Of a stretch of DNA of 38,445 nt, positions 3,885-38,334 are shown in pieces. The notes beneath the pieces were generated by a model, which had not been told where the DNA came from, ran no database searches, and worked only from the letters and a program-made list of their open reading frames with translations. The stretch spans positions 1-38,445 of the forward strand of contig JAJYMC010000046.1 of assembly GCA_021787335.1 (NCBI GenBank). Direction: 5' to 3'. Source of the stretch: Bacillota bacterium. GTDB lineage: Bacteria; Bacillota; Sulfobacillia; JAJYWN01; JAJZPE01. The translations under genes were made by a program, and so were the position numbers. Each line of letters opens with the position of its first letter. Positions within the stretch are counted from its first letter, which is position 1.

Positions 3885-3925
3885 GGGGGGTGACCTCCCT
3901 CGACGGTGAATGTGATGAGAGCGTG

Positions 3926-3968
3926 AAAAAGCCGGCCAGGACGGTGGAATTCGTGCCCTGAGCCGGCT
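3926..3968 (-). terminator. Rho-independent terminator of lonB
   Basis: On the minus strand AGCCGGC (3968-3962) pairs with GCCGGCT (3936-3930). An inner CAGG/CCTG pairing extends the stem, and a run of five T follows. It sits about 55 nt after the lonB stop and before the GNAT gene, so lonB and the GNAT gene are probably separate units. Confidence 0.8.
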
Positions 3969-4022
3969 ATCCCTGCTGATGGAGGGGGCGGAGGAACCGA
4001 TGGACCGCGGGGGCGCGGCCCC

Positions 4023-21837: not shown

Positions 21838-22209
21838 TTGAAGGACACGTTGATCTGCAAGGGCATGGCCTTCTACAGCTATCACGGCGACGCTCAGGAG
21901 GAGACCGTCCTCGGCCAGAAGTTCACCATCGACCTCGAGCTCGAGTACGACATGAGCGAGCTCATCGCCCAGGACAGGCTGAGCGGGTTCGGCTACGTCG
22001 AGGCCTATCAGACGACCAAGCGGGTGGTCACCGAAGAAAGGTACAACCTCATCCAAAAGCTGGCCGAGCGCGTCGTCGAAGAGATCTTCAAGCTGAAGCC
22101 GGACTGCCGGGCGACGATCACCGTGATCAAACCCGGAGCGCCGGCCGGAGGCTACATGGACTACGCCGCCGTCCGGCTGGTCCGCGAAGGCCCCGCTTAC
22201 CGAGGGTAG
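21838..22209 (+). CDS. folB: Dihydroneopterin aldolase
   Basis: Folate pathway enzyme that splits 7,8-dihydroneopterin to 6-hydroxymethyl-dihydropterin and glycolaldehyde; 123 aa. Visible family features are FYSYHG (12-17), EETVLGQ with the pterin-side Glu22, GYVEAYQ with Tyr53, NLIQKLAERV (70-79) and TVIKPGAP with the catalytic Lys98. These agree with Glu22, Tyr54 and Lys100 of the S. aureus enzyme. The TTG start has AAAGGAG about 10 nt upstream. It is alone: folP and folK are not next to it. Upstream lies a candidate operator. Confidence 0.92.
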   Translation: MKDTLICKGMAFYSYHGDAQEETVLGQKFTIDLELEYDMSELIAQDRLSGFGYVEAYQTTKRVVTEERYNLIQKLAERVVEEIFKLKPDCRATITVIKPGAPAGGYMDYAAVRLVREGPAYRG

Positions 22210-22276: not shown

Positions 22277-22879
22277 CTAGCCGTCCTTCTCCGCGACCAG
22301 TTTCGCCCCCGCGGCTCGGGCTTCGTCCAACGCTTCCTTGAGCGGCGAGGCGCCCGGGTCGGGGGTCATCCAGTCGGTGTACGGCAGGAGGACCGTGCCG
22401 ACCAGTTCGGTGTTGATGTGTCGGAAGCACGACTTGACGATGCGGACCTGCTTCTCAAAGACCTCCGGGCCGTAGCTCCCACTGACCCCGACGAAGATCC
22501 CGCGCTTCGGGCGCTGGACCCTGGTGACGAACCTCATCTTCCGCGCCGCCGGGTCGGCCTCGGTCCGGGTGAACTGGTAGCAGCGGTCGATGAAGGCTTT
22601 GGTCAGGGCGTTGAGCTCGTAGTAGTAGGTCGGCGCGCCGAGGACGAGGCCGTCGACCTCTTCGAAGGCCACGCCCAGGCGGGCCATGTCGTCCTTCTGG
22701 GCGCAGGTCGGGTGGGTGCGGCAGTAGTCGCAGTTCAAACAGAACTTTATCCGCAGGTCACGGAGGTAGAGCTTGTCGCACTCGGCCCCGGCCTCCCGGG
22801 CGCCGTCGAGGACGGCCGTGACCAGTTGATCAGTGTAACGACGCCGGCGTGGGCTCCCGACCAGACCAAGCACCCTCAC
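22277..22879 (-). CDS. Iron-sulfur flavoprotein (NADPH-dependent FMN reductase family)
   Basis: Flavodoxin-fold redox protein of 200 aa. FMN-binding parts are GLVGSPRRRRYTDQL (5-19) and GAPTYYYELNALTKAFIDR (81-99). The compact cysteine motif C47-x2-C50-x2-C53-x5-C59 is that of archaeal and clostridial iron-sulfur flavoproteins, which bind a 4Fe-4S cluster. The GTG start overlaps the kinase stop (GTGA), so it is translationally coupled as the last gene of the leftward catabolic operon. It probably passes electrons for an oxidation or reduction in that pathway. Partner and substrate are unknown. An anaerobic or microaerophilic host is suggested. Confidence 0.88.
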   Translation of the reverse strand: MRVLGLVGSPRRRRYTDQLVTAVLDGAREAGAECDKLYLRDLRIKFCLNCDYCRTHPTCAQKDDMARLGVAFEEVDGLVLGAPTYYYELNALTKAFIDRCYQFTRTEADPAARKMRFVTRVQRPKRGIFVGVSGSYGPEVFEKQVRIVKSCFRHINTELVGTVLLPYTDWMTPDPGASPLKEALDEARAAGAKLVAEKDG

Positions 22880-24402
22880 GTCGTCGCCCCCTTCCCGCGA
22901 TTGCCCTCGGCCTCATCGGTCAGGGCCCGGTGGAGGGGAAGGTAGCAGTCCTCCAAACGGTCCGAGACCTGCCGGTAGACGGAATACATCCGTCGGTAGA
23001 CGGCGTTGGCGGCGGCGTCCGGGACGGTGGTCTCGGTCACCGGCAGCCAATCATGGACCTGCCGGAAGCTCATCAGGTGCCCGGTCGCGTAGGCGGCCAG
23101 GAAGGCCGCGCCCAACGGGCCTTCCGCCTTGGAAACGTATTCGATGGGCCGGCCGAGGGCATCGGACATGATCTGGCGCCACAGACGGCTGGTCGCTCCG
23201 CCACCGGTGGCCACCACTCGGCGGACCAGCGGGTCAAGGTCGGTCATGGAATCCAGGACGCCATAGGCGAAGGACTCGAGGGCCGCCCGGAAGACGTGGC
23301 CCTTGGTGTGGAAGGTGCTCAGACCGAAGACGGTCCCTCGGGCCAGGGCGTTGGCGGTCGGCGTGCGCCGCCCCAACAGGTGGGGGAGGAAGACGAGCCC
23401 GTCGGCTCCCGGCGGCGTGGCCGCCGCCTCCGCGTCGAGCAACGCGTACGGACTGCCCCCGGCGCGGGCCGCCTCGGCCGTCTCGGCCTGCCCGAACTGG
23501 TCGCGGAACCAGCGGACGAGGTCGCCGGTGGTCAGGATGGACGCGCCGAAGCGGACGAGCCCGCGTTTGTCGCTCAGATGAACCGTCCGGACGACACTCT
23601 CCAGGTCGACCAGGCAGATGATGGAGGTTCCGGCCGAGGCGAAGTTGATCATCATGTCACCGGGCTCGACGCAGCCCGACCCGAGAAGAGCGAAGAACGA
23701 GTCGCCCGTGCCGCAGACGACCGGCGTCCCCGGGGCCAGGCCGGTCTCGCTTGCCGCCTCTTCCGTGACCCCGCCGACGATATCGGCCGTCGTATGGATC
23801 GGCGGGAGGAGGCGGGTCGGCACGCCCAGCCGCTCGCACCAGGCTTTGTCCCAGGCGAGGCGGCCTCGGTCGAAGATCCCGCCCCACATGGCGGCGTTGT
23901 CGACGTCGATGGAGTACTCGCCGGTCAAGCGGAAAATGGCGTAGCTGTTGGCGGAGAGGACGACCGCGGATCGGCGGAAGATCTCCGGCTCATGCCGCTT
24001 CACCCAGAGGAGTTTGGGCAGGACCAGCTCCAGGGTGATCGGCTCGGGCAGGACCGCGTTGACCTCAGCCAGCTCGGTCACGGCTCGGTTGTCCGAGTAA
24101 AGGATGCCGTTCCTCAGGACGTGGCCGCTCTCGTCCACGAAGCCCAGACAGGGAGTGAGCCCGCTGACGGCGACGCCGGCCACCCGCCGGGGGTCGACCC
24201 CCGCCGCGCCCAGCACCGCCCGGGTGACGGCGCGGACGTCCTCCCACCAGGCCTGCTCGGCCTGGTGTTCGGCCCACCCCGGACGCGGTCTTATCACCGG
24301 GTGCTCGACGTAGTGACGGGCCAGTACCTGCCCGTCAAGGTCGGCCAGGGTGCCCTTGGTGCCCAGCGTGCCGATATCCAGCCCGAGAAAAAGCGGCTTC
24401 AT
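22876..24402 (-). CDS. FGGY-family carbohydrate kinase (xylulokinase-like)
   Basis: ATP-dependent sugar or polyol kinase of 508 aa. The N-terminal phosphate-1 loop is LGLDIGTLGTKG (6-17). GWAEHQAEQAWW (42-53) is a xylulokinase-type signature, and the catalytic base is Asp234 in CGTGDSFFALLGSG. The adenosine loop ATGGGATSRLWRQIMSDALG lies near the C-terminus. ATG 24402 follows GGGGGAG and is 13 nt after the dehydrogenase stop. The exact sugar is not readable; FGGY members act on xylulose, ribulose, erythritol, glycerol and autoinducer-2, among others. Position beside a polyol-type dehydrogenase and an aldolase suggests oxidise-phosphorylate-split chemistry. Confidence 0.92.
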   Translation of the reverse strand: MKPLFLGLDIGTLGTKGTLADLDGQVLARHYVEHPVIRPRPGWAEHQAEQAWWEDVRAVTRAVLGAAGVDPRRVAGVAVSGLTPCLGFVDESGHVLRNGILYSDNRAVTELAEVNAVLPEPITLELVLPKLLWVKRHEPEIFRRSAVVLSANSYAIFRLTGEYSIDVDNAAMWGGIFDRGRLAWDKAWCERLGVPTRLLPPIHTTADIVGGVTEEAASETGLAPGTPVVCGTGDSFFALLGSGCVEPGDMMINFASAGTSIICLVDLESVVRTVHLSDKRGLVRFGASILTTGDLVRWFRDQFGQAETAEAARAGGSPYALLDAEAAATPPGADGLVFLPHLLGRRTPTANALARGTVFGLSTFHTKGHVFRAALESFAYGVLDSMTDLDPLVRRVVATGGGATSRLWRQIMSDALGRPIEYVSKAEGPLGAAFLAAYATGHLMSFRQVHDWLPVTETTVPDAAANAVYRRMYSVYRQVSDRLEDCYLPLHRALTDEAEGNRGKGATT

Positions 24403-24415
24403 TGGCTCTCCCCCG

Positions 24416-25486
24416 TCATTTCCCCGCGCCCGTTCCCGGGACCACGATGACGCGGTAGTTCTCGGGGTTGGCGGCCAGTTTGAAGCCCCGGTCGACGTCG
24501 CTCAGTGGGACCACGGCGGAAACGAAGGGACGCATGTCCACTTCCCTTAGGGAGATCATCCGGGCGGCCTCCCGGAAACTCTCCCGGTCCTGCCGGTACG
24601 TGCCGGTGATGGTGATCTCGTCGTAGTGGATGCCGTTGGCGTTGAGGCTGACGTTGGGGTCGGGGTGGGTCGACCCGTAGAGGACGACCGTGCCCCCTTT
24701 GACCGTCGCCTTGATGCAGTCCTCGACGGTGCGCGGCCCGCCGGCCGTGTAGAAGACGGCCTCGGCGCCCCGCCCATCGGTCTGGGCCCGGACGAAATCT
24801 ACCATCGAGCCGGCCGTGGGGTCGACGGTCAGGTCGGCCCCGTGCTCCTCCGCCACCCGGCGGCGGGCGGCCGACGGCTCACTGACAATCACCCGCGCCC
24901 CGCGCAGCTTGGCCAGTTTGACATGGAGGAGGCCCATGATCCCGGCGCCGGTGACCACGACCGTGTCACCGAAGCGGATCCCGGCCCGCCCCACACTTCG
25001 GGTGCAGCAGGCGAGCGGCTCGGTCAGGCAGCCCTCTTCGTACGGGACGTCGGGGTTGAGGCGGTAGACCTCATATCCTCGGGCGAGCATGAAATCGGCC
25101 AGGCCGCCGGGCCCCCAAGCGGCCCCGGGCGCCGGCTGGTCGTCGGCATGGACGCACAGATGGTCGAGCCCCCGCCGGCAGAAGTAACATTCACCGCACC
25201 TCGTCAGCTGGGCGACCGTCACCAGGTCGCCCAGCTGGGCCTCGCTCATGACCGCCGACCCGCGCGCCCGGACCACGCCGGCGATCTCGTGACCGCCGAG
25301 GAACGGGTAGGGCCCTGAGCCTTTGTAGAAACGCTGCTCCATGGTGCAAAGCCCGACGGCCTTGACCTCGATGAGCATCTGGTCGGGGGCCGGGACGGGG
25401 ACAGGCACGGTCTCCAGGGTTATCTGGCCGGGGCCGGTGAAGACCGCCCGGCGCATGGTCTTGGGAAGGTCGTTCCTCTGGCTCAA
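24416..25486 (-). CDS. Zinc-dependent alcohol/polyol dehydrogenase (MDR family)
   Basis: NAD(P)-dependent medium-chain dehydrogenase of 356 aa. The catalytic zinc ligands are Cys47 (GLCTMEQ) and His66-Glu67 (GGHE). The structural zinc is held by Cys97, Cys100, Cys103 and Cys111. The Rossmann motif is VVVTGAGIMGLLHVKLAK (from about 173). The usual CxTD after the first Cys is CTMEQ here, which may shape a distinct pocket. TTG 25486 has AAGGAGG 8 nt upstream. It lies 54 nt after the aldolase and 13 nt before the kinase. A sorbitol/threonine-dehydrogenase-like role on a polyol is inferred. Confidence 0.9.
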   Translation of the reverse strand: MSQRNDLPKTMRRAVFTGPGQITLETVPVPVPAPDQMLIEVKAVGLCTMEQRFYKGSGPYPFLGGHEIAGVVRARGSAVMSEAQLGDLVTVAQLTRCGECYFCRRGLDHLCVHADDQPAPGAAWGPGGLADFMLARGYEVYRLNPDVPYEEGCLTEPLACCTRSVGRAGIRFGDTVVVTGAGIMGLLHVKLAKLRGARVIVSEPSAARRRVAEEHGADLTVDPTAGSMVDFVRAQTDGRGAEAVFYTAGGPRTVEDCIKATVKGGTVVLYGSTHPDPNVSLNANGIHYDEITITGTYRQDRESFREAARMISLREVDMRPFVSAVVPLSDVDRGFKLAANPENYRVIVVPGTGAGK

Positions 25487-25540
25487 GTGGGGCGCCTCCT
25501 TGGTTTCCGTGAGGATTGTGGTTGGTTGTGTAGGTTGCGG

Positions 25541-26311
25541 TCAGCCCAGATGGCGGACGGCCTCGTCGGCCCCCCGGCCTTCGTGGATGATGGCCTCGAG
25601 GGCCCGGGTCATGGCCGTCGGGGACCGATGCCCCCAGACGTTCCGACCGATGGCCACGCCGGCCGCCCCGGCCTTGACGGCGTCGCCGATGCTCGCCAGG
25701 AAAGCTTGCGGGTCGTTGGTCTTGACCCCGCCAAGGACGACGACGGGCAGGTAGCTCGCGGCGATGACCTCCTCGTACCCGGGGACGTAGGGGGCCTTGA
25801 CCACGTCGGCCCCCAGCTCGCCGGCGACCCGGACGGCCATTCGCAGATTGGCCACGTTCCTGAGTTCCGGCGGGCCGTCGAAGCCCCCGGGCAGCATCTC
25901 GGCGATGAGCGGCATGCCCCAGCGCTGGCAATCTTGGCCGATCTTCCCGAGGGCGTCGAGGGTGTGCTCCAACCCTTGGCCCAGGCAGCCGGACGCGATG
26001 ACGGCGTCGGCCCCAAGCTCCAGGGCGGTTTCGACATCGAAGATCCAGGTCGTGTCGTGTCCCTCGGCCAGGGTGCTCGGCGACAGGTCAAGGCGGTAGA
26101 TGAGTCCCTTCCCGCGGAGGGCGGACGAGAACCGCAGGGCCGCACCGTGGTTGAGGATGACCGCGTCGGCCCCCCCTTCGACGACCTTGCTGATGGCCTC
26201 GGCGGGCCGCTCCAGCTCGGGCGGGGTCGGGCAGTTCGACGGATGGTCCATGGCCACTATCAGGGTGCGACCGTCGGGCCTGAAGATACGTTCGAGACGA
26301 CGTTTCTGCAT
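25541..26311 (-). CDS. DhnA-type class I aldolase (DeoC/LsrF/FbaB superfamily)
   Basis: Schiff-base aldolase or thiolase of 256 aa. Key features are VAMDHPSN (19-26), the Schiff-base lysine Lys172 in DVVKAPYVPG, LGGVKTND (193-200) and the phosphate-binding GAAGVAIGRNVWGH (215-228). The family includes fructose-bisphosphate aldolase DhnA, LsrF and archaeal ADH synthase. ATG 26311 (GGAGG 8 nt upstream) matches where homologues begin. An in-frame GTG at 26386 also has AGGAGG and would add 25 residues, so the start is uncertain. It is the first gene of the leftward operon, and its substrate is presumably the phosphorylated product of the kinase. Confidence 0.88.
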   Translation of the reverse strand: MQKRRLERIFRPDGRTLIVAMDHPSNCPTPPELERPAEAISKVVEGGADAVILNHGAALRFSSALRGKGLIYRLDLSPSTLAEGHDTTWIFDVETALELGADAVIASGCLGQGLEHTLDALGKIGQDCQRWGMPLIAEMLPGGFDGPPELRNVANLRMAVRVAGELGADVVKAPYVPGYEEVIAASYLPVVVLGGVKTNDPQAFLASIGDAVKAGAAGVAIGRNVWGHRSPTAMTRALEAIIHEGRGADEAVRHLG

Positions 26312-26662
26312 TTCTGCGACCTCCACTCCATGGTGTACGAGCGTCCCAGATTCGACGTAAGCCGGCCGAGTCCTTTTAATATTCACCCGGCTTTGCCTCC
26401 TCTATCTGGATAAACAGCCGGCTGGTGACAAATAGGGCGCCGTTTGACCTTCTTGGAACTATTTTTCGCACCGGAATGAAACATTCCGGCGCAGGATTCC
26501 GGACAACGGTAGGCGAACTATATTATAACCCATCAGACGTCATACAGCTAGGCGTCCGACGTGTCCGGATGAAACCGTGGGGTCAACCCTTTCCCGATGG
26601 GGCGCTTTGCTGAATTCGGCCATGTTTAGCTGCAGATTCGTTCAGCTTGGAGGGTGAGACAG
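26312..26662. promoter_or_regulatory. Divergent control region of the catabolic cluster
   Basis: About 350 AT-richer bases between the aldolase and SDR genes. They contain a perfect 8-bp inverted repeat CCGGAATG-AAA-CATTCCGG (26471-26489). A candidate rightward promoter follows, GGACAA (26501-26506), 17 bp and TATAAC (26524-26529). Just downstream CAGACGTC (26534-26541) and GCTAGGCG (26547-26554) match words near folB. There is no credible gene inside apart from the possible N-terminal extension of the aldolase. Confidence 0.55.
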
Positions 26663-27373
26663 ATGACACTTGACGGTCAGGTAGCCATCGTGACCGGGGC
26701 CGGCCAGGGGGTCGGTCGCAGCATCGGGCTGATGTTCGCCGGGGCGGGCGCGTCCGTGGTCCTGGTCGCCAGGACCCAGTCGGCCATTGACAAGGTGGCC
26801 GAGGAATGCCGCCAGAAGGGCGTCCGAGCGTTGGCCATCGCCGCCGACGTCGCCGACGAGGCGACGGTCAAGGACATCGTCGCGAAGACCGTGGCCGCGT
26901 TCGGCCGCCTCGACATCCTGGTCAACAACGCGGGCGTGATCGTCCCGGCCGCCGTGGTCGACACCGAGCTCAAGGACTGGGAAAGGGTCGTCGCCACCAA
27001 CCTCACCGGCGCCTTCCTGTTCATGAAGTATTGCGGCCGCGAGATGATGGCTCGCCGCCGGGGTCAGATCGTCAACATCTCCTCGGCCGCGGCCAAGGTC
27101 CCGTTCCACGAGTTCGGCACCTACGCCGCCACCAAGGCCGGGATGCTCGGGCTGACCAGGGTCCTGGCCGATGAGATGAAGCCCTATAACGTCAGGGTCA
27201 ACGCGATAAACCTGGGCCTGACCGACACGCCGGCCGTCCGCAACCGCCTCAACGTCGACCCGGCCGACCTGCTCAAACCCGAGCAGATTGCCTCCGTCGC
27301 CCTCTTCCTGGCCTCCGACGCCTCCTCCGGGATGACCGGGACCGACGTCGATGTCTTCGGGAACAGGGCATGA
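26663..27373 (+). CDS. Short-chain dehydrogenase/reductase (SDR)
   Basis: Classical SDR oxidoreductase of 236 aa using NAD(P). The cofactor motif TGAGQGVG is at residues 11-18 and NNAG at 87-90. The catalytic set is Asn112, Ser140 (ISSAAA), Tyr153 and Lys157 (YAATK). Asp61-Val after the third strand is normal. ATG 26663 is preceded by GGAGG at 9 nt and is preferred over the in-frame GTG inside that site. It is the first gene of the rightward operon. By context it oxidises a hydroxyl of the imported substrate or acts as an acetoin/diketone reductase; sequence does not decide. Confidence 0.9.
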   Translation: MTLDGQVAIVTGAGQGVGRSIGLMFAGAGASVVLVARTQSAIDKVAEECRQKGVRALAIAADVADEATVKDIVAKTVAAFGRLDILVNNAGVIVPAAVVDTELKDWERVVATNLTGAFLFMKYCGREMMARRRGQIVNISSAAAKVPFHEFGTYAATKAGMLGLTRVLADEMKPYNVRVNAINLGLTDTPAVRNRLNVDPADLLKPEQIASVALFLASDASSGMTGTDVDVFGNRA

Positions 27374-27476: not shown

Positions 27477-28895
27477 TTGTACGACCTTTTGATCAAGAAC
27501 GCCCATATCGTGACGGTCAACGCCCAGCGCCAGGTGATCTTCCCCGGCGCCGTGGCGATCACCGGAGACACCATCCAGGCCGTCGGCAAGACCGGCGACT
27601 TCGAGGGGGCCGAGGCCCGGCGGGTCATCGACGCCGTCGGCTCAGCGGTCTTTCCCGGGCTCGTCAACACCCACACCCATCTGTTCCAATCTCTGCTGAA
27701 GGGCCTGGGTGATGACCGCCCGCTGTCGGAATGGCTGGTCACGGCGACGCTGCCGAGCGCCGTGCAGTTCCGTGAGACCGAGATCCACACCTCGGCCGTC
27801 CTGGGTTGCCTCGACGCCCTCCACAGCGGGACCACCACGATCCTCGACTACAACTACTGCCATCCCGTCCCCGGACTCGGGGACGCGACGGTCCAAGGCT
27901 TCCGAGACGTCGGCATCCGCGCCATCCTCGGCCGCGGGATGACCGTGGCCGGCGAGCGCTTCGGCGTCCCGCCCGAGATGCGATCGACGCCGGACCGCGT
28001 CTTCGCCGACTTTGAGCGGCTCTACGACGCCTATCACGGGGCCGACAACGGCCGGCTCCGCGTCTGGCTGGCGCCGGGTTCGGTCTGGGGGAACACCCCC
28101 GAGGCCCTGCGCCGAGCGCGGGCGGTGGCCACCGAGGTCAAGACGGGGATCACCATCCACGTCTCGGAGACCCCCTGGGACCGCCAGTCCGCCGGGCTCG
28201 TCCACGAAGGTCGCAGCGACTTCGGGGCCCTGGCCGCTTACGGCGTTCTCGGCCCGGACGTCCTCCTCGTCCACTGTGTCCACCTGACCCCCGAAGAGAT
28301 CCGTCTGGCCGCCGAGTCTGACGTGAAGATCTCGCACAACGCGGTCAGCAACATGTACCTGGCCTCGGGGGTGGCCCCCGTGCCGGCCATGCTCCGCGCC
28401 GGCCTGACCTGCTCCATCGGGACCGACGGGGCGGCCAGCAACAACACGCAGGACATGATTGAAGCCCTGAAGATGACCGTCCTCATGCACAAGGTCGTGA
28501 CCATGGACGCGACGGCCCTGACCGCCGAGAAGGTCCTCGAGATGGCGACCATCGACGGGGCCCGGTCCATCGGCATGGGCGACCTGATCGGTTCGATCGA
28601 GCCCGGCAAGCGGGCCGACCTCTTCATCTTCGACCCATCCACGACCCCGCGCTCCGTGCCCATGCATCACCCCGTCTCGAGCCTGGTCTACTCCGGCGGC
28701 GCCGGCAACGTCGTCACCGTCATCGTGGACGGGCGCGTGCTCATTGACGGCGGCGAGGCCGTGACCATCGACGAACGGGCCTTCCTGGCCCGGGCCCAAC
28801 GGATCTCGGCCGCCCTGGCCGAGCGGGCCGGCACGGCCGAACTGGTCCGGAGCCGTCCCTGGCGGGCCCTCCCTCAAAAAAACGATCGTCCATAA
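27477..28895 (+). CDS. Amidohydrolase/deaminase of the TRZ/ATZ-SsnA group
   Basis: Metal-dependent hydrolase of 472 aa that most likely deaminates a purine-, pterin- or triazine-like ring. Features: N-terminal beta-sandwich (LLIKNAHIVTV), metal-binding His66-x-His68 in PGLVNTHTHLFQSLLKG, His228 in IHVSE with Glu231, LVHCVHLTPEE (His266/269), HNAVSNMYLASG, and catalytic Asp317 in IGTDGAASNN. SsnA, MtaD, guanine and 8-oxoguanine deaminases share this layout. TTG 27477 follows GGAAGGTGA. A GCCAGG/CCTGGC inverted repeat lies in the 103-nt gap after the SDR gene. A deaminase next to a nucleoside-type importer suggests a nitrogen heterocycle substrate. Confidence 0.9.
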   Translation: MYDLLIKNAHIVTVNAQRQVIFPGAVAITGDTIQAVGKTGDFEGAEARRVIDAVGSAVFPGLVNTHTHLFQSLLKGLGDDRPLSEWLVTATLPSAVQFRETEIHTSAVLGCLDALHSGTTTILDYNYCHPVPGLGDATVQGFRDVGIRAILGRGMTVAGERFGVPPEMRSTPDRVFADFERLYDAYHGADNGRLRVWLAPGSVWGNTPEALRRARAVATEVKTGITIHVSETPWDRQSAGLVHEGRSDFGALAAYGVLGPDVLLVHCVHLTPEEIRLAAESDVKISHNAVSNMYLASGVAPVPAMLRAGLTCSIGTDGAASNNTQDMIEALKMTVLMHKVVTMDATALTAEKVLEMATIDGARSIGMGDLIGSIEPGKRADLFIFDPSTTPRSVPMHHPVSSLVYSGGAGNVVTVIVDGRVLIDGGEAVTIDERAFLARAQRISAALAERAGTAELVRSRPWRALPQKNDRP

Positions 28896-28918
28896 GATTG
28901 GAAGGGACGTGCACAGGA

Positions 28919-30370
28919 TTGGCTGCTCAAGTGACCATGCCCAAACTGGGCTTGACCATGATCCAAGGCAAAGTGGTGAAATGGCTGGTTGCCGAAGGAG
29001 CAACCGTAAACAAGGGACAGACCGTCGTCCAGGTCACCACGGAGAAGATCGCCAACGTGGTTGAAGCGCCGGCCGAAGGCGTGCTCCGCAAGATTCTCGT
29101 GGCCGAAGGCAAGACCGTCCCCGTGCTGACGACCCTGGCCATCATCGCCGGCCCTTCCGAGGACATCAGCGCGGCCCTCGAAGCCGCGTCCAAGCCCCCT
29201 TCGATCTCGGGGGTCGTGGCCGGCGCGGCCGTTCCAGCCGCCCCCAAGGCCGCCCCCGTCGTCTCGACCGCGGCCGCGACCGCGCCCCTCGCCGCCCGCC
29301 CGGCGGCCGACAGCGAGTCCATCAAGGTCTCCCCGGTCGCCCGCAAGCTGGCCGAGGAAGCCGGCCTGAACCTGGCGACAGTCAATGGCAGCGGCCCGGG
29401 TGGCCGCATCCTGCGCGAGGACGTCGAGCGGGCTCTCGCCGCCCGCGCGGCCGCCGCCGCTTCACCGGCCGCGATTTCCCCGGCTGCCGCCCCCGCTCCG
29501 ACCGGCGCTGCCGCCGGCGGTCCGGTCAAGGCCTCGCCGGCCGCCAGAAAGCTGGCCGAGCAGAAGGGCCTGGACCTGTCCACGATCAGGGGGTCGGGTC
29601 CGGAGGGCCGCATCCTCACCGAAGACGTCGAGCGGGCCGCCGCGGGCGGTTCTGCCGCGACCGCGTCCGACCAGGTCATCCCGGCCGACGAGATGCGCCT
29701 GACCATCTCCCGCCGGATGATGGACAGCCTGAACGGCGCCGCCCAGACCACCATCAGCCGGACCATCAACGCCGGCGAACTGGTGCGGCTGCGCGAGGCC
29801 CTGCTGCCGCGGATCGAGCGGGAGAGCGGCGTCCGGCTGACCTACACCGACCTCATCGTCCGCGCGGTCGCCCTGGCCCTCAGCCGGTCGCCCGAGATCA
29901 ACGTGACCTTCGACGGCCAGGCCGTCACGCGCCGGGCCGAAGTCAACGTGGGCGTGGCCGTCGACGTCGGCAACGGCCTCATCGTCCCGGTCGTGGGGCA
30001 CGCCGACGCGCTGGGCCTGGCCCAGCTGTCGACCCGCATCAAGGCCTTGGCCGACAAGACTCGGCGGGGCGCGCTCGAGCCTGACGACGTCGCCGGCGGC
30101 ACCTTCACCGTCACCAACCTCGGCATGTACGGCGCCGACGCCTTCACTCCGATCATCAACCCGCCCGAGAGCGCCATCCTCGGCGTGGGACGCATCGTCG
30201 ACCGTCCGGTCGTCGAGAACGGCCGGGTCGTCCCGGGCAAGGAGATGGCCCTCAGCCTGACCCACGACCATCGGGTCATCGACGGGGCGCCGGCCGCCCG
30301 TTTCCTGGGCACCGTCGCCGAGTACCTCGAAGCCCCCTACACCATGCTCGGCCTCGGTGATGCCCTATGA
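28919..30370 (+). CDS. Dihydrolipoamide acyltransferase (E2) with two subunit-binding domains
   Basis: Core of a 2-oxoacid or acetoin dehydrogenase complex, 483 aa, cytosolic. The lipoyl domain (1-78) has lipoyl Lys43 in VTTEKIANVVEAP. Then come Ala/Pro linkers and two peripheral-subunit-binding domains, about 136-173 (SPVARKLAEEAGLNL, GSGPGGRILREDVERAL) and 204-241 (SPAARKLAEQKGLDL, GSGPEGRILTEDVERA); one is normal. The catalytic domain (about 255-483) ends with HDHRVIDG, catalytic His451 and Asp455. TTG 28919 is chosen for the GGAAGGGA site upstream; TTG 28898 lies 2 nt after the previous stop and lacks one. The E3 gene overlaps its stop. The acyl group carried is unknown. Confidence 0.93.
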   Translation: MAAQVTMPKLGLTMIQGKVVKWLVAEGATVNKGQTVVQVTTEKIANVVEAPAEGVLRKILVAEGKTVPVLTTLAIIAGPSEDISAALEAASKPPSISGVVAGAAVPAAPKAAPVVSTAAATAPLAARPAADSESIKVSPVARKLAEEAGLNLATVNGSGPGGRILREDVERALAARAAAAASPAAISPAAAPAPTGAAAGGPVKASPAARKLAEQKGLDLSTIRGSGPEGRILTEDVERAAAGGSAATASDQVIPADEMRLTISRRMMDSLNGAAQTTISRTINAGELVRLREALLPRIERESGVRLTYTDLIVRAVALALSRSPEINVTFDGQAVTRRAEVNVGVAVDVGNGLIVPVVGHADALGLAQLSTRIKALADKTRRGALEPDDVAGGTFTVTNLGMYGADAFTPIINPPESAILGVGRIVDRPVVENGRVVPGKEMALSLTHDHRVIDGAPAARFLGTVAEYLEAPYTMLGLGDAL

Positions 30371-31779
30371 AGCCAACGGACCTGCTCATAATCGGCGGCG
30401 GACCGGCCGGTTACGTCGCCGCCCTGCGGGCGGCGCAGCTCGGCGCGAAGCCGCTCGTCGTCGAGGCGGCCGAGCTCGGCGGCGTCTGCCTGAACCGGGG
30501 CTGCGTCCCGACCAAGAGCCTCATCGAAAGCGCGGGACTGTACCGGACCATCACCGGGGCCGCCCGCGAGCACGGCATCAGCGTCAGCGGAGTCGCCATC
30601 GACCTGGACGCCATGGTCAAACGCAAGGCGGGGGTCAGCCGGACGCTCAGCGACGCCCTTGCCGTCCTCCTCCCCAGCCGCGGCATCGAGATCATCCCCG
30701 GGCGGGCCCGCTTCACCGGCCCACACGAGGTGGCCATCGCGCCGGACGAGCGGGTCTCCTTCGGGAAGGCCATCGTCTGCACCGGCTCGTCCCCCTGGCA
30801 CCCCCCCATCCCCGGCCTCGACCTGCCCGGCGTCATCGGCAGTGACGAGGCCCTCGCCCCCAGCGACATTCCGGCCAGCCTGGCCGTGATCGGGGGCGGG
30901 GCGGTGGGCTGTGAGTTCGCCACCATCTATGCCGTCCTCGGCTGCCAGGTGACCATCATCGAGATGCTGCAGAGCCTGGTTCCGACCGAGGACGCCGAGA
31001 TCAGCCAGGCCCTGCAGTATTACATGGAAGCCCAGGGAATCACGGTCATCACCGGCGCCCGCGTCGAACTCGTGGAGCGCCTCGAACCAGCCACCGACGC
31101 CCAGACCGGCGAGGGAACGGCCCTGCGGATCCGCCTGGCGACACCCGGCGGGTCGCGGACGGTGGACGTCCAGCGCGTCCTGGCGGCCATCGGGCGGCGC
31201 CCGAACACGGCCGGCCTGGACCTTCAGGCCGCCGGCATCACGGTCGGCCGCCGCGGGGAGATCCCCGTTGACGGCGGCATGCGGACAAGCGTCCCCGGGA
31301 TCTTCGCGGCCGGCGACGTCACCGGAGGGATTCTCCTCGCCCACGTGGCCTTCGAACAGGGGATCGTCGCCGCGGAGAACGCCCTCGGTCGGCAGGTGAG
31401 CTTCCGCCAGGGCATCGTGCCCCGCTGCATCTACACCGACCCCGAAGTGGCGGCGGTCGGGATGACCGAGGCGGCCGCGCTGGACGAGGGCTACGACGTC
31501 GCCGTCGGCCGGTTCCCCTTCACCAACAGCGGGCGGGCCATGGCCATGGGCAGGCCCGAGGGATTCGTCAAGGCGGTCACCGAGAAGGCCGGCGGTCAGC
31601 TCCTGGGGGTTCACATCATCGGGCCGCACGCCTCGGAGCTCATCGCCGAAGCCGCCCTGGCCCTCCACCACGGGAGCACCATCGACGACTTCGCCCAGGT
31701 CATCCACGCCCACCCGACCCTGACCGAGGCCGTCAAAGAGGCGGTCCTCGACGCCCGCGGGGAGGCCATCCACAAATGA
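30367..31779 (+). CDS. lpdA: Dihydrolipoamide dehydrogenase (E3)
   Basis: FAD flavoprotein of 470 aa that reoxidises the E2 lipoyl arm with NAD. The FAD motif is [12 protein letters not shown] (9-20). The redox disulfide is Cys41/Cys46 in [13 protein letters not shown]. The NAD motif is [13 protein letters not shown], the second FAD motif [11 protein letters not shown], and the C-terminal active-site base is in HAHPTLTEA. Its ATG overlaps the E2 stop (ATGA), and lipA overlaps its own stop, so the three are translationally coupled. Whether the organism has another E3 is not known from this window. Confidence 0.96.
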
Positions 31780-32684
31780 GCGGCTCGACCCAGGCATGGC
31801 CGGACTGGCTGGTCGTGCGGATCCCCGCCGACGGGCCGGCGGGCTCGGTGGACGGTCTCTTGCGCGACCTCTCACTGCACACCGTCTGCGAGGAAGCCTC
31901 CTGCCCGAACATCTGGGAGTGTTATAACCACCGCACCTCGACCTTTCTCATCATGGGCGACACCTGCACCCGGCACTGCGCCTTTTGCGGCGTCACGCAC
32001 GCCTCGCCGCGGGTAACGGTCCGGCCGGTCGACCCCGATGAGCCCGTCCACGTCGCCGAAGCCGCGCGACGTTTGGGTCTCGAGCACGTCGTCATCACCT
32101 CGGTCACCCGCGACGACCTGCCTGATGGCGGAGCCGGTGTCTTCGCCGCCTGTATCGACGAGATGAGGCGAGTGATGCCCGGCACGACCATCGAGGTGCT
32201 GGTCCCCGACTTTCGGGGCGATCGGGCGGCCCTGGACCGGGTCCTCGCGGCGGCTCCGGATGTCTTCAACCACAACGTCGAGACGGTTCCTCGCCTGTAT
32301 TCGAAGGTGCGGCCGCAGGCCGACTACCGGCGCTCCCTGGATGTCCTGGCCGCGGCGGCCGCCGCCGGTCTCACCGTCAAGTCCGGCCTCATGCTCGGCC
32401 TTGGCGAGACCATGGCCGAGGTCGAGACGGTCCTTCAGGACCTGCGCCGGGCCGGTTGCCACCTGGTCACCATCGGCCAGTACCTGCGGCCCTCCCCGCA
32501 CCAACTGCCGGTGACCCGCTTCGTCGCACCGGAGGAGTTCGCGAAGCTCGAGAAGACAGCCTTGGCCATGGGGTTCGCCGGCGTGGCCGCCGGGCCCCTG
32601 GTCCGCAGTTCATACCGGGCGGCCGAGATGCGCCGGTCGACGGCGCTCAAGGGCCACGAGCCGCCCGCCAATAGGGGGTCTTGA
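31776..32684 (+). CDS. lipA: Lipoyl synthase
   Basis: Radical-SAM enzyme of 302 aa that inserts two sulfurs into octanoyl groups on E2 proteins. The auxiliary cluster ligands are Cys38, Cys43 and Cys49 ([13 protein letters not shown]). The radical-SAM triad is Cys64, Cys68 and Cys71 (CTRHCAFC). The C-terminal RSSY motif supplies the serine ligand. ATGA overlap with E3 couples it to the dehydrogenase complex, so lipoylation of this complex is probably made locally. No octanoyltransferase gene is in the window. Confidence 0.96.
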
Positions 32685-32685: not shown

Positions 32686-33639
32686 TTGGTCAGCGTCAAC
32701 AAAGAAACGATGAAGCTCGTTCGCCGGGTCATCGATGAGGCCGACCGCTTGGATGCAGCCGTCTCCCGCCTCCCGTCCGGGGCGACGGTCATCGACATGG
32801 GCGTGAACCGCAACGGCGGCTGGGAGGCCGGGCGTCTCTTCAGCGAGATGACCATGGGCACGCTGGGTGCCGCCTCGCTGGACCAGTTCATGCTCGGCGA
32901 CGTCTATCTGCCGTCCATCGACGTCCACATCGACCAGCCGCTGATCGCCACCTTCGGCTGTCAGATCGCCGGTTGGCAGGTCAGTTCAGGGGCCTTCTCG
33001 GTCATCGGTTCGGGCCCGGCCCGGACCCAGGGGAAGCTCAAGAGCGACAGCTACGTCCATTACGTCGATTACCGCGACGACAACGACGAAGTCGTCCTGT
33101 GCCTGCAGATGGACGCCCTCCCCACCGATGACGTGGCCGTCTCGGTGGCCAAGGCCTGCGGTACGACGCCTGACAAGGTCTACCTACCCGTCGCCTCCAA
33201 CACCTCGATCACCACGTCCGTCCAGGTCTCGGCGCGCTCCGTCGAGCAGACCATCCACCGGCTCCAGGAGGAGGGCTTCCCCATCGACTCCATCCTGTGG
33301 GCCTGGGGCACCGCTCCCATCGCCCCGGTCGCCGACGACAAGTTGAAGACGATGGGCCGTATCAACGACGCCATCCTCTATGGCGCCGTGTCCGACTTCT
33401 GGGTCCGGACAACCGACGAGGCCTGCGAGCGCGTCATCGGCCGGATCGTCAGCGAGGCGGTGGGGGCGCGGCCCAAGCCGTTCGCCGACATCTTCATCGA
33501 GCACAACCGGGACTTCTACCAGATCCCGCACAACATCCACTCCCCGGCGCGGGTTCATCTGCACAACCTGGCCACCGGCCGCTCCTTCGCCGCTGGGCAC
33601 GTGGACTATGACCTCCTGAAAGAGAGCTTCCTAAAGTGA
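32686..33639 (+). CDS. Methenyltetrahydromethanopterin cyclohydrolase homologue (Mch-like)
   Basis: Homologue (317 aa) of the enzyme that interconverts N5,N10-methenyl- and N5-formyl-tetrahydromethanopterin in methanogens and methylotrophs. Family marks run the full length: ATVIDMGVNRNGGWEAGRLF (33-52), GSGPART (108-114), VYLPVASNTSITTSVQVSAR (165-184) and APIAPVADDKLKTMGRINDAI (210-230). A C-terminal PARVHLHNLATGRSFAAGHV follows (287-306). Arg184 and Glu187 (R-S-V-E) align with the Arg and Glu I recall as catalytic in archaeal Mch. TTG 32686 lies 1 nt after lipA, with AGGGGG 7 nt upstream. It sits between lipA and E1 of a lipoamide complex, with no other methanopterin gene in the window, so its substrate may not be methanopterin. 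Confidence 0.88.
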   Translation: MVSVNKETMKLVRRVIDEADRLDAAVSRLPSGATVIDMGVNRNGGWEAGRLFSEMTMGTLGAASLDQFMLGDVYLPSIDVHIDQPLIATFGCQIAGWQVSSGAFSVIGSGPARTQGKLKSDSYVHYVDYRDDNDEVVLCLQMDALPTDDVAVSVAKACGTTPDKVYLPVASNTSITTSVQVSARSVEQTIHRLQEEGFPIDSILWAWGTAPIAPVADDKLKTMGRINDAILYGAVSDFWVRTTDEACERVIGRIVSEAVGARPKPFADIFIEHNRDFYQIPHNIHSPARVHLHNLATGRSFAAGHVDYDLLKESFLK

Positions 33640-33683: not shown

Positions 33684-34664
33684 GTGTCGACCGACAAGCA
33701 GACGCTTCTCGATTACTACCGCAAGATGGTCCTCATCCGGCGCTTCGAGGAGACCATGGAAGAGCACGCCAGGAAGGGCTACATCCCGGGCTTCCTCCAC
33801 CTCGGCATCGGCCAGGAGGCCGCCCAGGTCGGAACGATGGCCTCCTTCCAACCTGGGGACTACGTCCTACCAGATCACCGGAGCCATGGCGTATGCCTGA
33901 TGGTCGGCACGCCGACGCGCGAAGTCATGGCCGAGATCTTCGGCAAGAAGACCGGCACCAACGGCGGACGCGGCGGCAGCATGCACGTCGCCGACTTCAA
34001 GCGGGGCAACGTGGGCAACAACGCCATCCAGGGTTCGACCATGGCCACGGCCTGCGGCCTGGCCCTGGCGGCCCAGGTCAAGAAGACGAAGTCGGTCACC
34101 TTCGAGTTCATCGGGGACGGCACGGTCGGCCGGGGTGAGTTCCACGAGAGCCTCAACCTGGCCGGCATCTGGAAGCTCCCGATCGTCTATGTCCTCGTCA
34201 ACAACGGCTACGCCATCTCCACCCGGGCGACCGACGCGCATCCCCTGGCCGACCTGGCCAAGATGGGCTGCGCTTACAAAGTCCCCGGGATCACCGTGGA
34301 TGGCAACGACGTCGAGGCCGTCCAGGCCGCCGCCAAAGAGGCGACCGACCGGGCCCGTCGTGGCGATGGGGCGACCATCATCGAGCTGAAGACCTACCGT
34401 TGGCAGGGCCACTTCTCCGGCGACCCGGCCTCCTACCGTCCTGAGGAAGAGGTCAAGGCCTGGAAGGAAAAGTGCCCCATCAAGCGCTTGCGCGAGAAAC
34501 TCCTCAAGCCGAAGATGGCCGACGAGGCCGCCCTCAAGGCCATCGAGGACGATGTCGAGCGGGAGATCCAGGACGCCCTCAAGTTCTCCATCGACAGCCC
34601 CGCTCCGACCATCGCTGACGCCCTGTCCTTCGTCTACGTCGGGAGAGAGGTGACCGGCAAGTGA
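33684..34664 (+). CDS. TPP-dependent dehydrogenase E1 alpha subunit (pyruvate/acetoin type)
   Basis: Alpha half of the thiamine-diphosphate E1, 326 aa. The TPP motif runs from GDG at residues 144-146 to NN at 173-174. HLGIGQEAAQVG (39-50), GGRGGSMH (94-101) and YRWQGHFSGDP are typical of acetoin- or pyruvate-dehydrogenase E1 alpha. It most resembles the AcoA-like group, but branched-chain or other 2-oxo acids remain possible. GTG 33684 has GAGG 8 nt upstream. It follows the Mch-like gene by 44 nt and its stop overlaps the E1 beta start (GTGA). Confidence 0.93.
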   Translation: MSTDKQTLLDYYRKMVLIRRFEETMEEHARKGYIPGFLHLGIGQEAAQVGTMASFQPGDYVLPDHRSHGVCLMVGTPTREVMAEIFGKKTGTNGGRGGSMHVADFKRGNVGNNAIQGSTMATACGLALAAQVKKTKSVTFEFIGDGTVGRGEFHESLNLAGIWKLPIVYVLVNNGYAISTRATDAHPLADLAKMGCAYKVPGITVDGNDVEAVQAAAKEATDRARRGDGATIIELKTYRWQGHFSGDPASYRPEEEVKAWKEKCPIKRLREKLLKPKMADEAALKAIEDDVEREIQDALKFSIDSPAPTIADALSFVYVGREVTGK

Positions 34665-35641
34665 GGACCCTCAACTACAAGGAAGCTCTCAACGAAGCCC
34701 TTCATCAGGAAATGGCCAACGACAGCCGGGTCATCGTCCTCGGCGAGGACGTCGCCCGGATGGGCGGCGACTTCGGGGTGACCATGGGGCTTCTGGACAA
34801 GTTCGGCCCGGACCGCGTCCGCGACACGCCGCTCTCCGAGGCGGCCATCATCGGCGCGGCCAACGGCGCCGCTTTCTGCGGGCTCAGGCCGGTGGCCGAG
34901 ATAATGTTCGCCGACTTCATCACCGAGTGCTACGACCAACTCGTCAACAACAGCGCCAAGGCCCGTTACATGTTCAACGGGCAGGTGATGGCCCCGATCG
35001 TTGTACGGACCGCGTCCGGCGCCGGCTTCCGGGCCGCCTACCACCACTCGCAGAACATCGAGGCCTGGTTCATGAACATCCCCGGCTTGACCGTCGTCGC
35101 CCCGGCGACCCCCCATGACGCCAAGGGGCTCCTCATCGCCTCCATCCGTGACGACAACCCGATCATCTTCCTCGAGCACAAGATGCTCTACGGCACCAGC
35201 GGCGAGGTCCCGGAGGAGCCCTACGCCCTGCCCATCGGCGTGGCCGAGGTCAAGCGTCCGGGCACCGACGTGACCATCGTCTCCAGCATGAAACAGCTCC
35301 ATTACGCCCTGGCCGTGGCCGACCAGCTGGCCGCCGAAGAGGAGATCTCCTGCGAGGTCATCGACCTGCGGACGATCAAGCCCTTCGACAAGGCGACCAT
35401 CCTCTCGTCGGTCAAGAAGACCGGCCGCGTGGTCCTGGTCAACGAGGCCCCGAAGACCGGCAGCATTAACGCGGAGATCTCGGCGGTCATCACGGAGGAG
35501 GCCTTCAGGGACCTGAAGGCTCCGGTCGAACGGGTCAACAGCCTCGACGTCCCGGTCGGCTTCGCCCCCGTCCTCGAGGACTATGTCATCCCGGGTCCGG
35601 CCGAAATCGCCAAGGCCGTCCGCAAGGTGGTCGACTATTAA
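34661..35641 (+). CDS. TPP-dependent dehydrogenase E1 beta subunit
   Basis: Beta half of E1, 326 aa, completing the alpha2beta2 decarboxylase. Visible marks are LGEDVARMGGDFGVT (27-41), DTPLSEAAIIGAANGAA with the TPP-contacting Glu60, and YHHSQNIEAWF with active-site His residues. FLEHKMLYG and the transketolase C-terminal domain follow (EVIDLRTIKPFDKATI). The GTG start overlaps the alpha stop. Length and features fit acetoin or pyruvate dehydrogenase beta subunits; substrate not resolved. Confidence 0.94.
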   Translation: MRTLNYKEALNEALHQEMANDSRVIVLGEDVARMGGDFGVTMGLLDKFGPDRVRDTPLSEAAIIGAANGAAFCGLRPVAEIMFADFITECYDQLVNNSAKARYMFNGQVMAPIVVRTASGAGFRAAYHHSQNIEAWFMNIPGLTVVAPATPHDAKGLLIASIRDDNPIIFLEHKMLYGTSGEVPEEPYALPIGVAEVKRPGTDVTIVSSMKQLHYALAVADQLAAEEEISCEVIDLRTIKPFDKATILSSVKKTGRVVLVNEAPKTGSINAEISAVITEEAFRDLKAPVERVNSLDVPVGFAPVLEDYVIPGPAEIAKAVRKVVDY

Positions 35642-35681
35642 GAGCGACACCCAAGACGGGCACTCCGGAGGAGTGGTTCAG

Positions 35682-37208
35682 TTGGAGCAACCCCTGCTTG
35701 AAATGCACGGTATGACCAAACGGTTTCCCGGCGTGCTGGCCAACGACCGCATCGACCTGACGGTCGGGAAGGGTGAGATCCACGCCCTCCTTGGCGAGAA
35801 CGGCTCGGGCAAGACGACCCTGATGAACATCCTCTACGGCCTGTACCAACCCGACGCCGGAGAGGTCTTGTTCGAAGGCAAGCGCCTCAAGGCCAAGTCC
35901 CCGGGGCAGGCCATCGACGCCGGCATCGGCATGGTCCACCAGCACTTCATGCTGGTCCAAGCCTTCAGCGTCACGGAGAACGTCATCCTGGGGATGAAGT
36001 CCAAGCGCGAACCCCTGCTGGGGCTGGCCCAGGCCGAAGCCGAGGTCAAGGCCCTGAGCGAGAAGTACGGCCTCAAGGTCGACCCCCGGGCCAAGATCTG
36101 GCAACTCTCCGTGGGCGAGCAGCAACGCGTGGAGATCCTGAAAGCCCTCCACCGCCATGCCCGTCTGCTTATCCTGGATGAACCGACCGCTGTCCTGACC
36201 CCGCAGGAAGCGGAGGAGCTGTCCGCCATCCTACGGTCGCTGGCCGCCGAGGGCCGCTCGATCATCTTCATCAGCCACAAGCTGAACGAGGTGATGGGCG
36301 TCTCGAGCAAGGTGACCGTCCTCCGGGCCGGCCGGGCCATCGACACCGTCGAGACGGTCAAGACGAGCGAGGCCGAACTGGCCCGGATGATGGTCGGCCG
36401 CGAGGTGGTCTTCCGGATCGACAAGAAGCCCGCCGAGCCCAAGGAGGTCATCCTCCAGATCGACGGCCTGAAGGCGACCGATCAGAAGGACCTGCCGGCC
36501 GTGCGCTCCCTGTCCCTCAACGTCCGGGCGGGGGAGATTCTCGGGGTGGCCGGCGTCGACGGGAACGGGCAGACCGAGTTGGCCGAATGCATCATCGGCG
36601 TCCGCAAGCCCGACGGCGGGCGAGTGGCCGTCTGCGGCCAAGACATCGTCGGCTTGTCGCCGCGTCAGGTCGCCCAGCAGGGGGTCGGGGTCATCCCCGC
36701 CGACCGCCACCATCAGGGCCTGGTCTTGGGCCTCCCGGTGGCCGAGAACCTCATGTTCGGTAACTTCTACTGCGAGCCGTATTCACGTCGCGGCTTCCTC
36801 CAGCTCGGCAAGATGGAGGAGATCGCCAAGAAGCAGATCCAGGAGTTCGACATCCGCACCCCGTCAAGCACGGTCGAGGCGAGGAACCTCTCCGGCGGCA
36901 ATCAGCAGAAGATCGTCCTGGCCCGCGAGCTGTCCAGGTCGCCGAAGCTGATCATCGCCATGTTGCCCACGCGCGGCCTGGACGTCGGGGCGACCGAGTT
37001 CGTCCACCACCGGATCATCGACGCCCGGGACCGCGGGGCGGCCGTCCTCCTCATCTCCACGGAACTCGAAGAGATCCTGTCGCTCTCGGACCGCATCGCC
37101 GTCATGTACGAAGGCGAGATCATGGGGGTGGTCCCCCGCGATGCCGCCGACGTCAATGAGTTGGGCCTGATGATGGCAGGGGCCAAGCGCCTGCCGGAGG
37201 CGTCCTGA
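35682..37208 (+). CDS. Nucleoside/BMP-type ABC importer ATPase (two NBDs fused)
   Basis: Energising subunit of an ABC importer, 508 aa. First NBD: Walker A GENGSGKT (38-45), signature LSVGEQQRVEIL, Walker B LLILDEPT. Second NBD: degenerate Walker A GVAGVDGNGQTELAE, signature LSGGNQQKIV, and MLPTRGLDVGA in place of a catalytic Asp-Glu. That asymmetry is normal for the NupO/YufO and sugar (RbsA-like) groups. TTG 35682 has GGAGGAG 8 nt upstream; the longer frame from 35583 overlaps E1 beta. The two permease genes are not in the window and are probably farther right. Its partner is the BMP lipoprotein that follows. Confidence 0.94.
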   Translation: MEQPLLEMHGMTKRFPGVLANDRIDLTVGKGEIHALLGENGSGKTTLMNILYGLYQPDAGEVLFEGKRLKAKSPGQAIDAGIGMVHQHFMLVQAFSVTENVILGMKSKREPLLGLAQAEAEVKALSEKYGLKVDPRAKIWQLSVGEQQRVEILKALHRHARLLILDEPTAVLTPQEAEELSAILRSLAAEGRSIIFISHKLNEVMGVSSKVTVLRAGRAIDTVETVKTSEAELARMMVGREVVFRIDKKPAEPKEVILQIDGLKATDQKDLPAVRSLSLNVRAGEILGVAGVDGNGQTELAECIIGVRKPDGGRVAVCGQDIVGLSPRQVAQQGVGVIPADRHHQGLVLGLPVAENLMFGNFYCEPYSRRGFLQLGKMEEIAKKQIQEFDIRTPSSTVEARNLSGGNQQKIVLARELSRSPKLIIAMLPTRGLDVGATEFVHHRIIDARDRGAAVLLISTELEEILSLSDRIAVMYEGEIMGVVPRDAADVNELGLMMAGAKRLPEAS

Positions 37209-37356: not shown

Positions 37357-38334
37357 GTGAAGCGCTTCCTGATCATCCTGTTGGTTCTCTTGCTCGCCCT
37401 CACCACGCTCGTGGCGGGCTGCTCGAAGAAGGAGAAGCCTCTGGCCAAGAAGGCCGCGATGATCCTGTCCGGCCCGGTCAACGATGGCGGCTGGAACCAG
37501 AACGCGTATGACGGTCTGACCGCTCTCAAGGAAAAGGACGGCTTCGAAATCGCCGTCTCCGAGAACGTCGCCCAGGCCGACCAGATCAACCTCATGCGGA
37601 ACTACGCGAATCAGGGCTTCAAGTACATCATCGCCAACGGTTTCGAGTACGGTGACGCCATCAAGACGGTCGCCGCCGAGTTCCCGAAGGTCACCTTCAT
37701 CCAGCTCGGTGGGATCCAGCACAACGGCACGAACTCCGACGCCATGCTCTTCACCTCCGGTGAGGCCGGGTACGCCGTCGGCACCCTGGCCGGTCTGATG
37801 ACCAAGACCAACAAGATCGGCTGGGTCGGCGCCATGGACATCCCGAGCATCAAGGCTGACGAGGACAACGCCGTCGCCGCCATCAAGGCCGTCAACCCGA
37901 AGGCCACGGTCGTCTCGGCTTACGTCGGTTCGTGGACGGACGTCGCCAAGGGCAAGGAAGCCGCCCTCGCTCAGATCGCTCAGCATGTCGACGTCATCAT
38001 CGCCAACGGCGACGCCGTCAACCACGGTGTGGCCGAAGCGGTCAAGGGGACCAAGGTGCTCATGGTCGGCTGGTCGCGTGACCAGGCCTCCCTGGCTCCT
38101 GACAACGTCATCACCTCCGTCGTCCAGAGCGGCGCCCCCATCCTTCTCGACCTCGTCGGCAAGGGTGAGGCCGGGCAGCTGAAGGGCGACCTCTACATCA
38201 TGGGCATGGCTGAAGGCGCCCAGGTCCTCGCCCCGTTCAACAAGATCGTTCCCCAGGATGTCCAGGATAAGGTGAACAAGGTCGTCCAGGACCTCAAGGA
38301 CAAGAAGATCACCCTCATCCCGCCGAAGTCATGA
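37357..38334 (+). CDS. BMP-family substrate-binding lipoprotein of ABC importer
   Basis: Membrane-tethered receptor of 325 aa in the PnrA/BMP (Med) family, whose known members bind purine nucleosides and some other cofactors. The signal peptide ends in the lipobox LVAGC with lipidated Cys22. KKAAMILSGPVNDGGWNQNAYDG (about 31-53), NLMRNYANQGFKYIIANGF, DVIIANGDAVNHGV and VGWSRDQASLAPDNVITSVV are family landmarks, including ligand-contact Asp/Trp positions. GTG 37357 follows GGGGGG about 9 nt upstream. The gene order ATPase-then-receptor is reversed from the more usual receptor-first order. Confidence 0.93.
   Translation: MKRFLIILLVLLLALTTLVAGCSKKEKPLAKKAAMILSGPVNDGGWNQNAYDGLTALKEKDGFEIAVSENVAQADQINLMRNYANQGFKYIIANGFEYGDAIKTVAAEFPKVTFIQLGGIQHNGTNSDAMLFTSGEAGYAVGTLAGLMTKTNKIGWVGAMDIPSIKADEDNAVAAIKAVNPKATVVSAYVGSWTDVAKGKEAALAQIAQHVDVIIANGDAVNHGVAEAVKGTKVLMVGWSRDQASLAPDNVITSVVQSGAPILLDLVGKGEAGQLKGDLYIMGMAEGAQVLAPFNKIVPQDVQDKVNKVVQDLKDKKITLIPPKS

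Follow-up and report, generated by a model that had tools for sequence, protein, structure and literature searches.

A methanopterin cyclohydrolase homologue of a separate clade in an amidohydrolase and lipoyl-complex operon of a Bacillota bacterium

The stretch of DNA we describe here (the window) spans 38,445 nucleotides of a Bacillota genome. Towards its end lies a cluster of genes encoding, in order, an SDR-family dehydrogenase, an amidohydrolase, E2, E3, lipoyl synthase (LipA), a homologue of methanopterin cyclohydrolase (Mch), E1 alpha, E1 beta, an ABC transporter ATPase and a BMP-type lipoprotein (Table 1). The genes mostly overlap or stand a few tens of bases apart. A sequence-only reading of the window had placed mch between lipA and E1, 1 nt after lipA, and that is where it sits: lipA ends at 32684 and the E1 alpha gene starts at 33684. 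A Shine-Dalgarno-like AGGGGG lies 7 nt 5' of the TTG start, and the reading frame appears intact and full-length. Upstream are a divergent operon, a gene for an FMN reductase family protein, a FolB-like gene, possibly of the same regulon as the cluster, and a regulator gene. Further away on the reverse strand, a single reading frame (15068-16846) fuses a domain of RNA pseudouridylate synthase type (PF00849) with a SAM methyltransferase domain (PF10672), and another (7266-8849) encodes a protein that looks secreted and has a domain like that of glycoside hydrolase family 26. In a genome of the same genus (G001, locus L017) the contig goes on: two permease genes come next, then another ORF, then genes for a DAO-type oxidase, HcnA/HcnB-like subunits and LipB. 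Between the permeases and the DAO, G046 (L028) encodes a TIM-barrel protein of xylose-isomerase type.

Table 1. Genes and diagnostic codons at the mch locus, in window coordinates.
Feature	Position	Strand	Evidence or remark
GntR/UTRA regulator	20768..21505	-	homologues stand by other Mch genes of the non-canonical type
FolB-like, dihydroneopterin aldolase family	21838..22209	+	TIGR00525 75.3 bits, cut-off 72.15 (barely over)
NADPH-dependent FMN reductase family protein	22277..22879	-	PF03358; homologues recur beside Mch
Divergent operon	22876..26386	-	aldolase, alcohol dehydrogenase, kinase
FGGY kinase (divergent operon)	22876-24402	-	
Zn-alcohol dehydrogenase (divergent operon)	24416-25486	-	
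DhnA-type aldolase (divergent operon)	25541-26386	-	
SDR-family dehydrogenase, first cluster gene	26654..27373	+	PF00106; recurs by E1/E2-linked Mch genes
TRZ/ATZ-type amidohydrolase (AHS)	27477..28895	+	PF01979; nearest PDB AtzA 4v1x
E2 dihydrolipoyl acyltransferase	28898..30370	+	PF00198, PF00364, PF02817
E3 dihydrolipoyl dehydrogenase	30367..31779	+	TIGR01350 501 bits, cut-off 408.8
LipA lipoyl synthase	31776..32684	+	TIGR00510 365 bits, cut-off 310
Mch homologue, non-canonical clade	32686..33639	+	317 aa, TTG start; PF02289, TIGR03120, AF2/Foldseek, tree
Codon of Gln141	33106..33108	+	A. fulgidus 140
Codons of Arg184 ... Glu187	33235..33246	+	A. fulgidus 183/186
Codon of His285	33538..33540	+	A. 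fulgidus 280
E1 alpha, TPP-dependent	33684..34664	+	PF00676
E1 beta	34661..35641	+	PF02779/PF02780; PDB 1um9_B
ABC transporter ATPase, nucleoside/BMP type	35583..37208	+	PF00005; true start probably after 35641
BMP/PnrA-like substrate-binding lipoprotein	37357..38334	+	PF02608; PDB 7x0r, AtzT 6pi5

Mch, familiar from methanogens and methylotrophs, is usually taken as a marker of methanopterin-linked one-carbon (C1) metabolism. That the window encodes a full-length member of the family, as first claimed from the letters alone, is borne out by profile, sequence and predicted structure. The window protein matches PF02289 over positions 1-311 of 311 with 340.5 bits (cut-off 25; E 1.2e-101), passes the TIGR03120 equivalog cut-off (310.8 against 228.8 bits) and matches 1QLM in phmmer at E 5.9e-78. 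Its AF2 model (pLDDT 93.2) predicts the Mch fold, with Foldseek TM scores of 0.94 to 1QLM and 0.93 to 4GVQ (A. fulgidus Mch with tetrahydromethanopterin); six Mch chains were returned, followed by no further significant structure among the matches listed. The Arg-x-x-Glu pair noticed earlier at 184/187 is real. It aligns with Arg183 and Glu186 of A. fulgidus Mch, residues that reportedly have a catalytic role, and it is kept in 66 of 66 full-length Mch proteins. Full-length homology, predicted fold, the Arg/Glu pair and a Q-x-x-G-W segment are therefore what the window protein has in common with Mch as known from 1QLM, 4FIO and 4GVQ. It differs from canonical Mch in two diagnostic residues (Glu140 to Gln, Phe280 to His), in belonging to a separate clade, in its amidohydrolase/lipoyl-complex operon and in coming from a genome without the methanopterin genes tested.

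The clade emerged from an IQ-TREE phylogeny of 55 full-length Mch proteins, which splits 16 from 39 with support of 100/99; the smaller side is made up of reference proteins from archaea, genes of canonical clusters and two Bacillota genes that stand alone. When 11 Mch encoded on plasmids, some in methylotroph-type clusters and one from a haloarchaeon, were added by a quick method (66 in total), the split held at 27 versus 39, the 27 methanopterin-type rows coming from archaea, methylotrophs and formaldehyde-cluster Bacillota. Set against archaeal and methylotroph Mch in this way, the window protein falls in the 39-row group, apart from the methanogen and methylotroph proteins and inside a sub-clade of 21 rows (support 99/96). 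At A. fulgidus position 140 all 27 methanopterin-type proteins have Glu and all 39 non-canonical ones have Gln; at position 280 the former have Phe throughout (27/27), the latter His (33) or Asp (6). Because this residue pair divides all 66 proteins without exception, it makes a simple filter for Mch type; the window protein has Gln141 and His285 in place of the Glu/Phe pair. Four short tandem partners of 240-270 aa, which lack the Arg/Glu pair, were excluded from the tree (L067:14668-15390, L083:9721-10536, L084:10464-11222 and L087:10397-11203, each paired in tandem with a full-length copy). Two of the four were checked and are PF02289 proteins; all four are possibly inactive partner subunits.

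The window's genome (G000), 97% complete, carries a single Mch. Neither Fae nor Ftr had been visible in the window, and a genome-wide search for Fae, Ftr, MtdB and beta-RFAP synthase was likewise negative, so that a complete methanopterin pathway elsewhere in this genome is unsupported. The same holds more widely: beta-RFAP synthase went undetected in 19 of 19 genomes, mostly draft assemblies, with non-canonical Mch alone, as did MtdB in those of them tested, and the synthase is present in the canonical-cluster genomes G031, G041, G291 and G359. The beta-RFAP synthase profile is broad rather than narrow, matching Haloferax and Sulfolobus as well, which makes its absence more telling. Solitary canonical-side Mch genes also occur without beta-RFAP synthase (genomes G181 and G212; loci L064 and L080), that of L080 adjoining a BMP-type transporter. 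A canonical methanopterin role for the window protein is unlikely. One could still picture an ordinary Mch at work on methanopterin imported from methanogen neighbours, given the retained Arg/Glu pair and fold and an uptake system in the operon; a clade-wide change at two otherwise invariant positions and the failure to find Fae, Ftr and MtdB, the enzymes it would work with, in this genome make us think it very improbable.

How widespread is the non-canonical type? In a phylum sample of 398 genomes Mch occurs in 26, with up to five matches each. Fifteen of the 26 have non-canonical Mch, often in 2-5 copies per genome and nearly always without beta-RFAP synthase; G118, extra to the 15, has broken Mch fragments only. 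Eleven loci are canonical Fhc/methanofuran-type clusters. The non-canonical rows come from Bacillota and from Atribacterota, the latter represented by one genome. A literature search, covering few subscription papers, found no paper on the clade.

Neighbourhoods were taken from the 26 genomes and from Mch-bearing relatives of the same class, using our own simple gene finder (starts outside the window are approximate) followed by clustering. Neighbours within 10 kb were counted by tblastn for the 39 non-canonical and 13 other Bacillota Mch rows; the counts describe related genomes, not phylogenetically independent events. FhcA/B/C and Ftr lie near 0/39 of the former and 10-11/13 of the latter (FhcA 10, Ftr 11). 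The reverse is seen for E1 alpha (22/39), E2 (21/39), the SDR (19/39) and the FMN reductase (16/39), each of which is near 0/13 of the other rows, and for the amidohydrolase (16/39 versus 1/13) and BMP protein (15/39 versus 1/13). FolB is found near 7/39 and 3/13, respectively. The co-occurrence with E1 and E2 extends to all 21 rows of the window's sub-clade, which lie by E1 and/or E2, L070 counting on a contig-edge E1 fragment and L022 on E2/E3/LipA alone.

Gene order differs among lineages, Mch standing before E1 alpha or after E2, as might be the case had a horizontally acquired mch come to sit, functionally unconnected, in an operon for a pyruvate-type dehydrogenase. The association turns up again under seven family codes (f1, f37, f40, f54, f74, f87, f117) and across all 21 rows of the supported sub-clade, which, together with a second E1 elsewhere in the window's genome, renders this hardly credible. 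That second E1 alpha is full-length and separate, on contig C11, and led us to reject the idea that the window complex is the cell's sole pyruvate-type dehydrogenase. The window has the same enzyme set (E1 alpha, E1 beta, E2, E3 and lipA) as acetoin/pyruvate-type dehydrogenase operons, but its E1 alpha and E2 fall under the PDH equivalog cut-offs, and it adds Mch, the SDR, the amidohydrolase and the BMP transporter.

The sequence-only reading had offered that an acyl or C1 product of E1-E2-E3 might be passed to a pterin carrier. Such a direct transfer is conjectural. Amidohydrolases and transporters accompany several kinds of non-canonical Mch (sub-clades other than the window's adjoin TRZ/ATZ amidohydrolases and nucleobase-type or ECF transporters), whereas E1/E2 keep mainly to one sub-clade, and a chemical link between E1/E2 and Mch is therefore only putative. 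This distribution points to an E1-E2 complex that acts in one branch of a catabolic pathway rather than as the partner of the Mch chemistry.

Pterin-binding families are found in the non-canonical modules: FolB, MeTr (PRK07535, 337.7 bits, cut-off 259) and Ftr paralogues. Among genomes of this type Ftr homologues occur in G055, G134, G190, G106 and G210, the last four in similar modules with an amidohydrolase and mostly also transporter genes. Aldolase, Zn-alcohol dehydrogenase and FGGY kinase, which make up the divergent operon in the window, have family members in Ftr-paralogue modules of other genomes too, the FGGY kinases at about 24% identity. At L097, L098, L099 and L100 the Ftr homologues are divergent, with about 30% identity to canonical Ftr, and their modules have an amidohydrolase and an alcohol dehydrogenase, mostly an ECF transporter and, in three, an FGGY kinase and an aldolase. 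A residue switch in Ftr parallel to that in Mch was not seen in two near-canonical module Ftrs, and the four divergent ones have changed too far to be read in this respect. A separate observation concerns L089, where an 8-oxoguanine deaminase gene (2639-4000; 597.8 bits, cut-off 532) lies some 6 kb from a canonical Mch.

Since Mch here forms a separate, multi-copy branch tied to uptake and breakdown operons, it probably has another job than methanopterin. Action on another pterin, a suggestion made at the outset, is our leading idea because of the two class-specific residue changes and the pterin-binding families FolB, MeTr and Ftr in the modules. Stated more fully, and with somewhat less than even confidence, we propose that the window protein is an Mch-fold cyclohydrolase recruited from methanopterin C1 metabolism into a catabolic or salvage operon for an N-heterocycle, likely of pterin type. 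In favour are the family and its retained residues, the separate clade, the missing methanopterin genes among those tested and the recurrent neighbourhood. Against it, the amidohydrolase superfamily takes purines and triazines as readily as pterins. Moreover, the amidohydrolases beside non-canonical Mch match TRZ/ATZ profiles, none above a curated equivalog cut-off (that of the window is under every NCBIfam one), and FolB only just clears its own.

The operon might then work as follows. The BMP-type ABC transporter would import an N-heterocycle with amino or oxo substituents, in all likelihood of pterin type (a derivative of folate or methanopterin, for example), and the amidohydrolase would next remove the ring amino group. 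The Mch homologue, via Arg184 and Glu187, would hydrolyse an N-CH=N unit (methenyl/imidazolinium or a similar cyclic amidine). Conversion of a keto-type carbon fragment to acyl-CoA would fall to the SDR and to E1-E2-E3, the TPP-lipoyl complex for which the operon's LipA supplies the lipoyl groups. We infer the pterin substrate, the order of the steps and a role for the Glu to Gln change in reading a deaminated (2-oxo) ring.

The same gene families can be read as purine degradation: the amidohydrolase would deaminate a base, the Mch- and Ftr-like proteins would act on the imidazole C8 or a formimino group arising from it, and E1-E2-E3 would oxidise pyruvate formed downstream. The BMP transporter is of nucleobase type, its nearest structures including AtzT, and the amidohydrolases are related to guanine/8-oxoguanine deaminases. 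Some operons adjoin carbamoyltransferase, hydantoinase-like, amino-acid-kinase-family (carbamate-kinase-like) and, by eye, SHMT-like genes, and several genes of clostridial purine fermentation are still to be found (PMC3519856). Yet Mch and Ftr bind tetrahydropterins, the reacting carbon is placed differently in a purine, FolB and MeTr indicate pterins, and no Ftr was found in the window's genome; we regard purine degradation as improbable.

Two readings fit best, the pterin-type one and another in which Mch would do folate C1 chemistry for its module, as a methenyl-H4folate cyclohydrolase or an N5-formyl-H4folate/methenyl interconverter for the C1 units that each module's substrate releases. 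The precedent is haloarchaeal Mch (HVO_2573), found, like the window protein, in organisms without methanopterin and assigned to H4folate (PMC8305020). The modules include C1-type enzymes (DAO/HcnABC oxidases and a methyl-H4folate:corrinoid methyltransferase), and folate enzymes are in use, FolD being present in 20 of 20 genomes examined, the window's included. FolK (HPPK, PF01288) gave no match in eight genomes, that of the window among them, which makes folate salvage possible; another eight have it, and salvage alone cannot account for the whole clade. FolD also cuts the other way: its family already covers methenyl-H4folate cyclohydrolase activity, and with FolD in every genome we rejected Mch as its replacement. 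The haloarchaeal protein, solitary and with no amidohydrolase or E1/E2 neighbours, groups with archaeal Mch and (in Natronorubrum) keeps Glu140 and Phe280, which the 39 do not. Since a Mch assigned to H4folate keeps Glu/Phe, the switch is not simply one from methanopterin to folate, and its occurrence in a clade whose gene neighbours include amidohydrolase families that deaminate rings would point to an altered ring. The amidohydrolases and the 2-5 distinct Mch paralogues per genome are also left unaccounted for, and on balance a folate C1 role seems to us unlikely.

A wider proposal follows from the pterin-type reading, and we hold it as possible though doubtful: that several Bacillota lineages and Atribacterota have a so far undescribed anaerobic route for breaking down pterin-type cofactors (the folates or methanopterin of other microbes), Mch and Ftr homologues acting on a deaminated pterin and a dedicated TPP-lipoyl complex making acyl-CoA from part of the side chain. 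Ring deamination by an amidohydrolase, proposed here too, would be shared with bacterial pterin/folate degradation by pterin deaminase, for example in Variovorax sp. F1 (PMC9513972); unlike the window's operon, such systems are not known to involve Mch, E1/E2 or a BMP transporter.

With 15 of 26 Mch genomes non-canonical and nearly all of these without beta-RFAP synthase, annotation pipelines and marker-gene surveys would misread them; the window protein itself passes the TIGR03120 equivalog cut-off despite its non-canonical clade. If the pterin reading is true, these genes would offer a route to anaerobic pterin-cofactor recycling, a process with few known genes.
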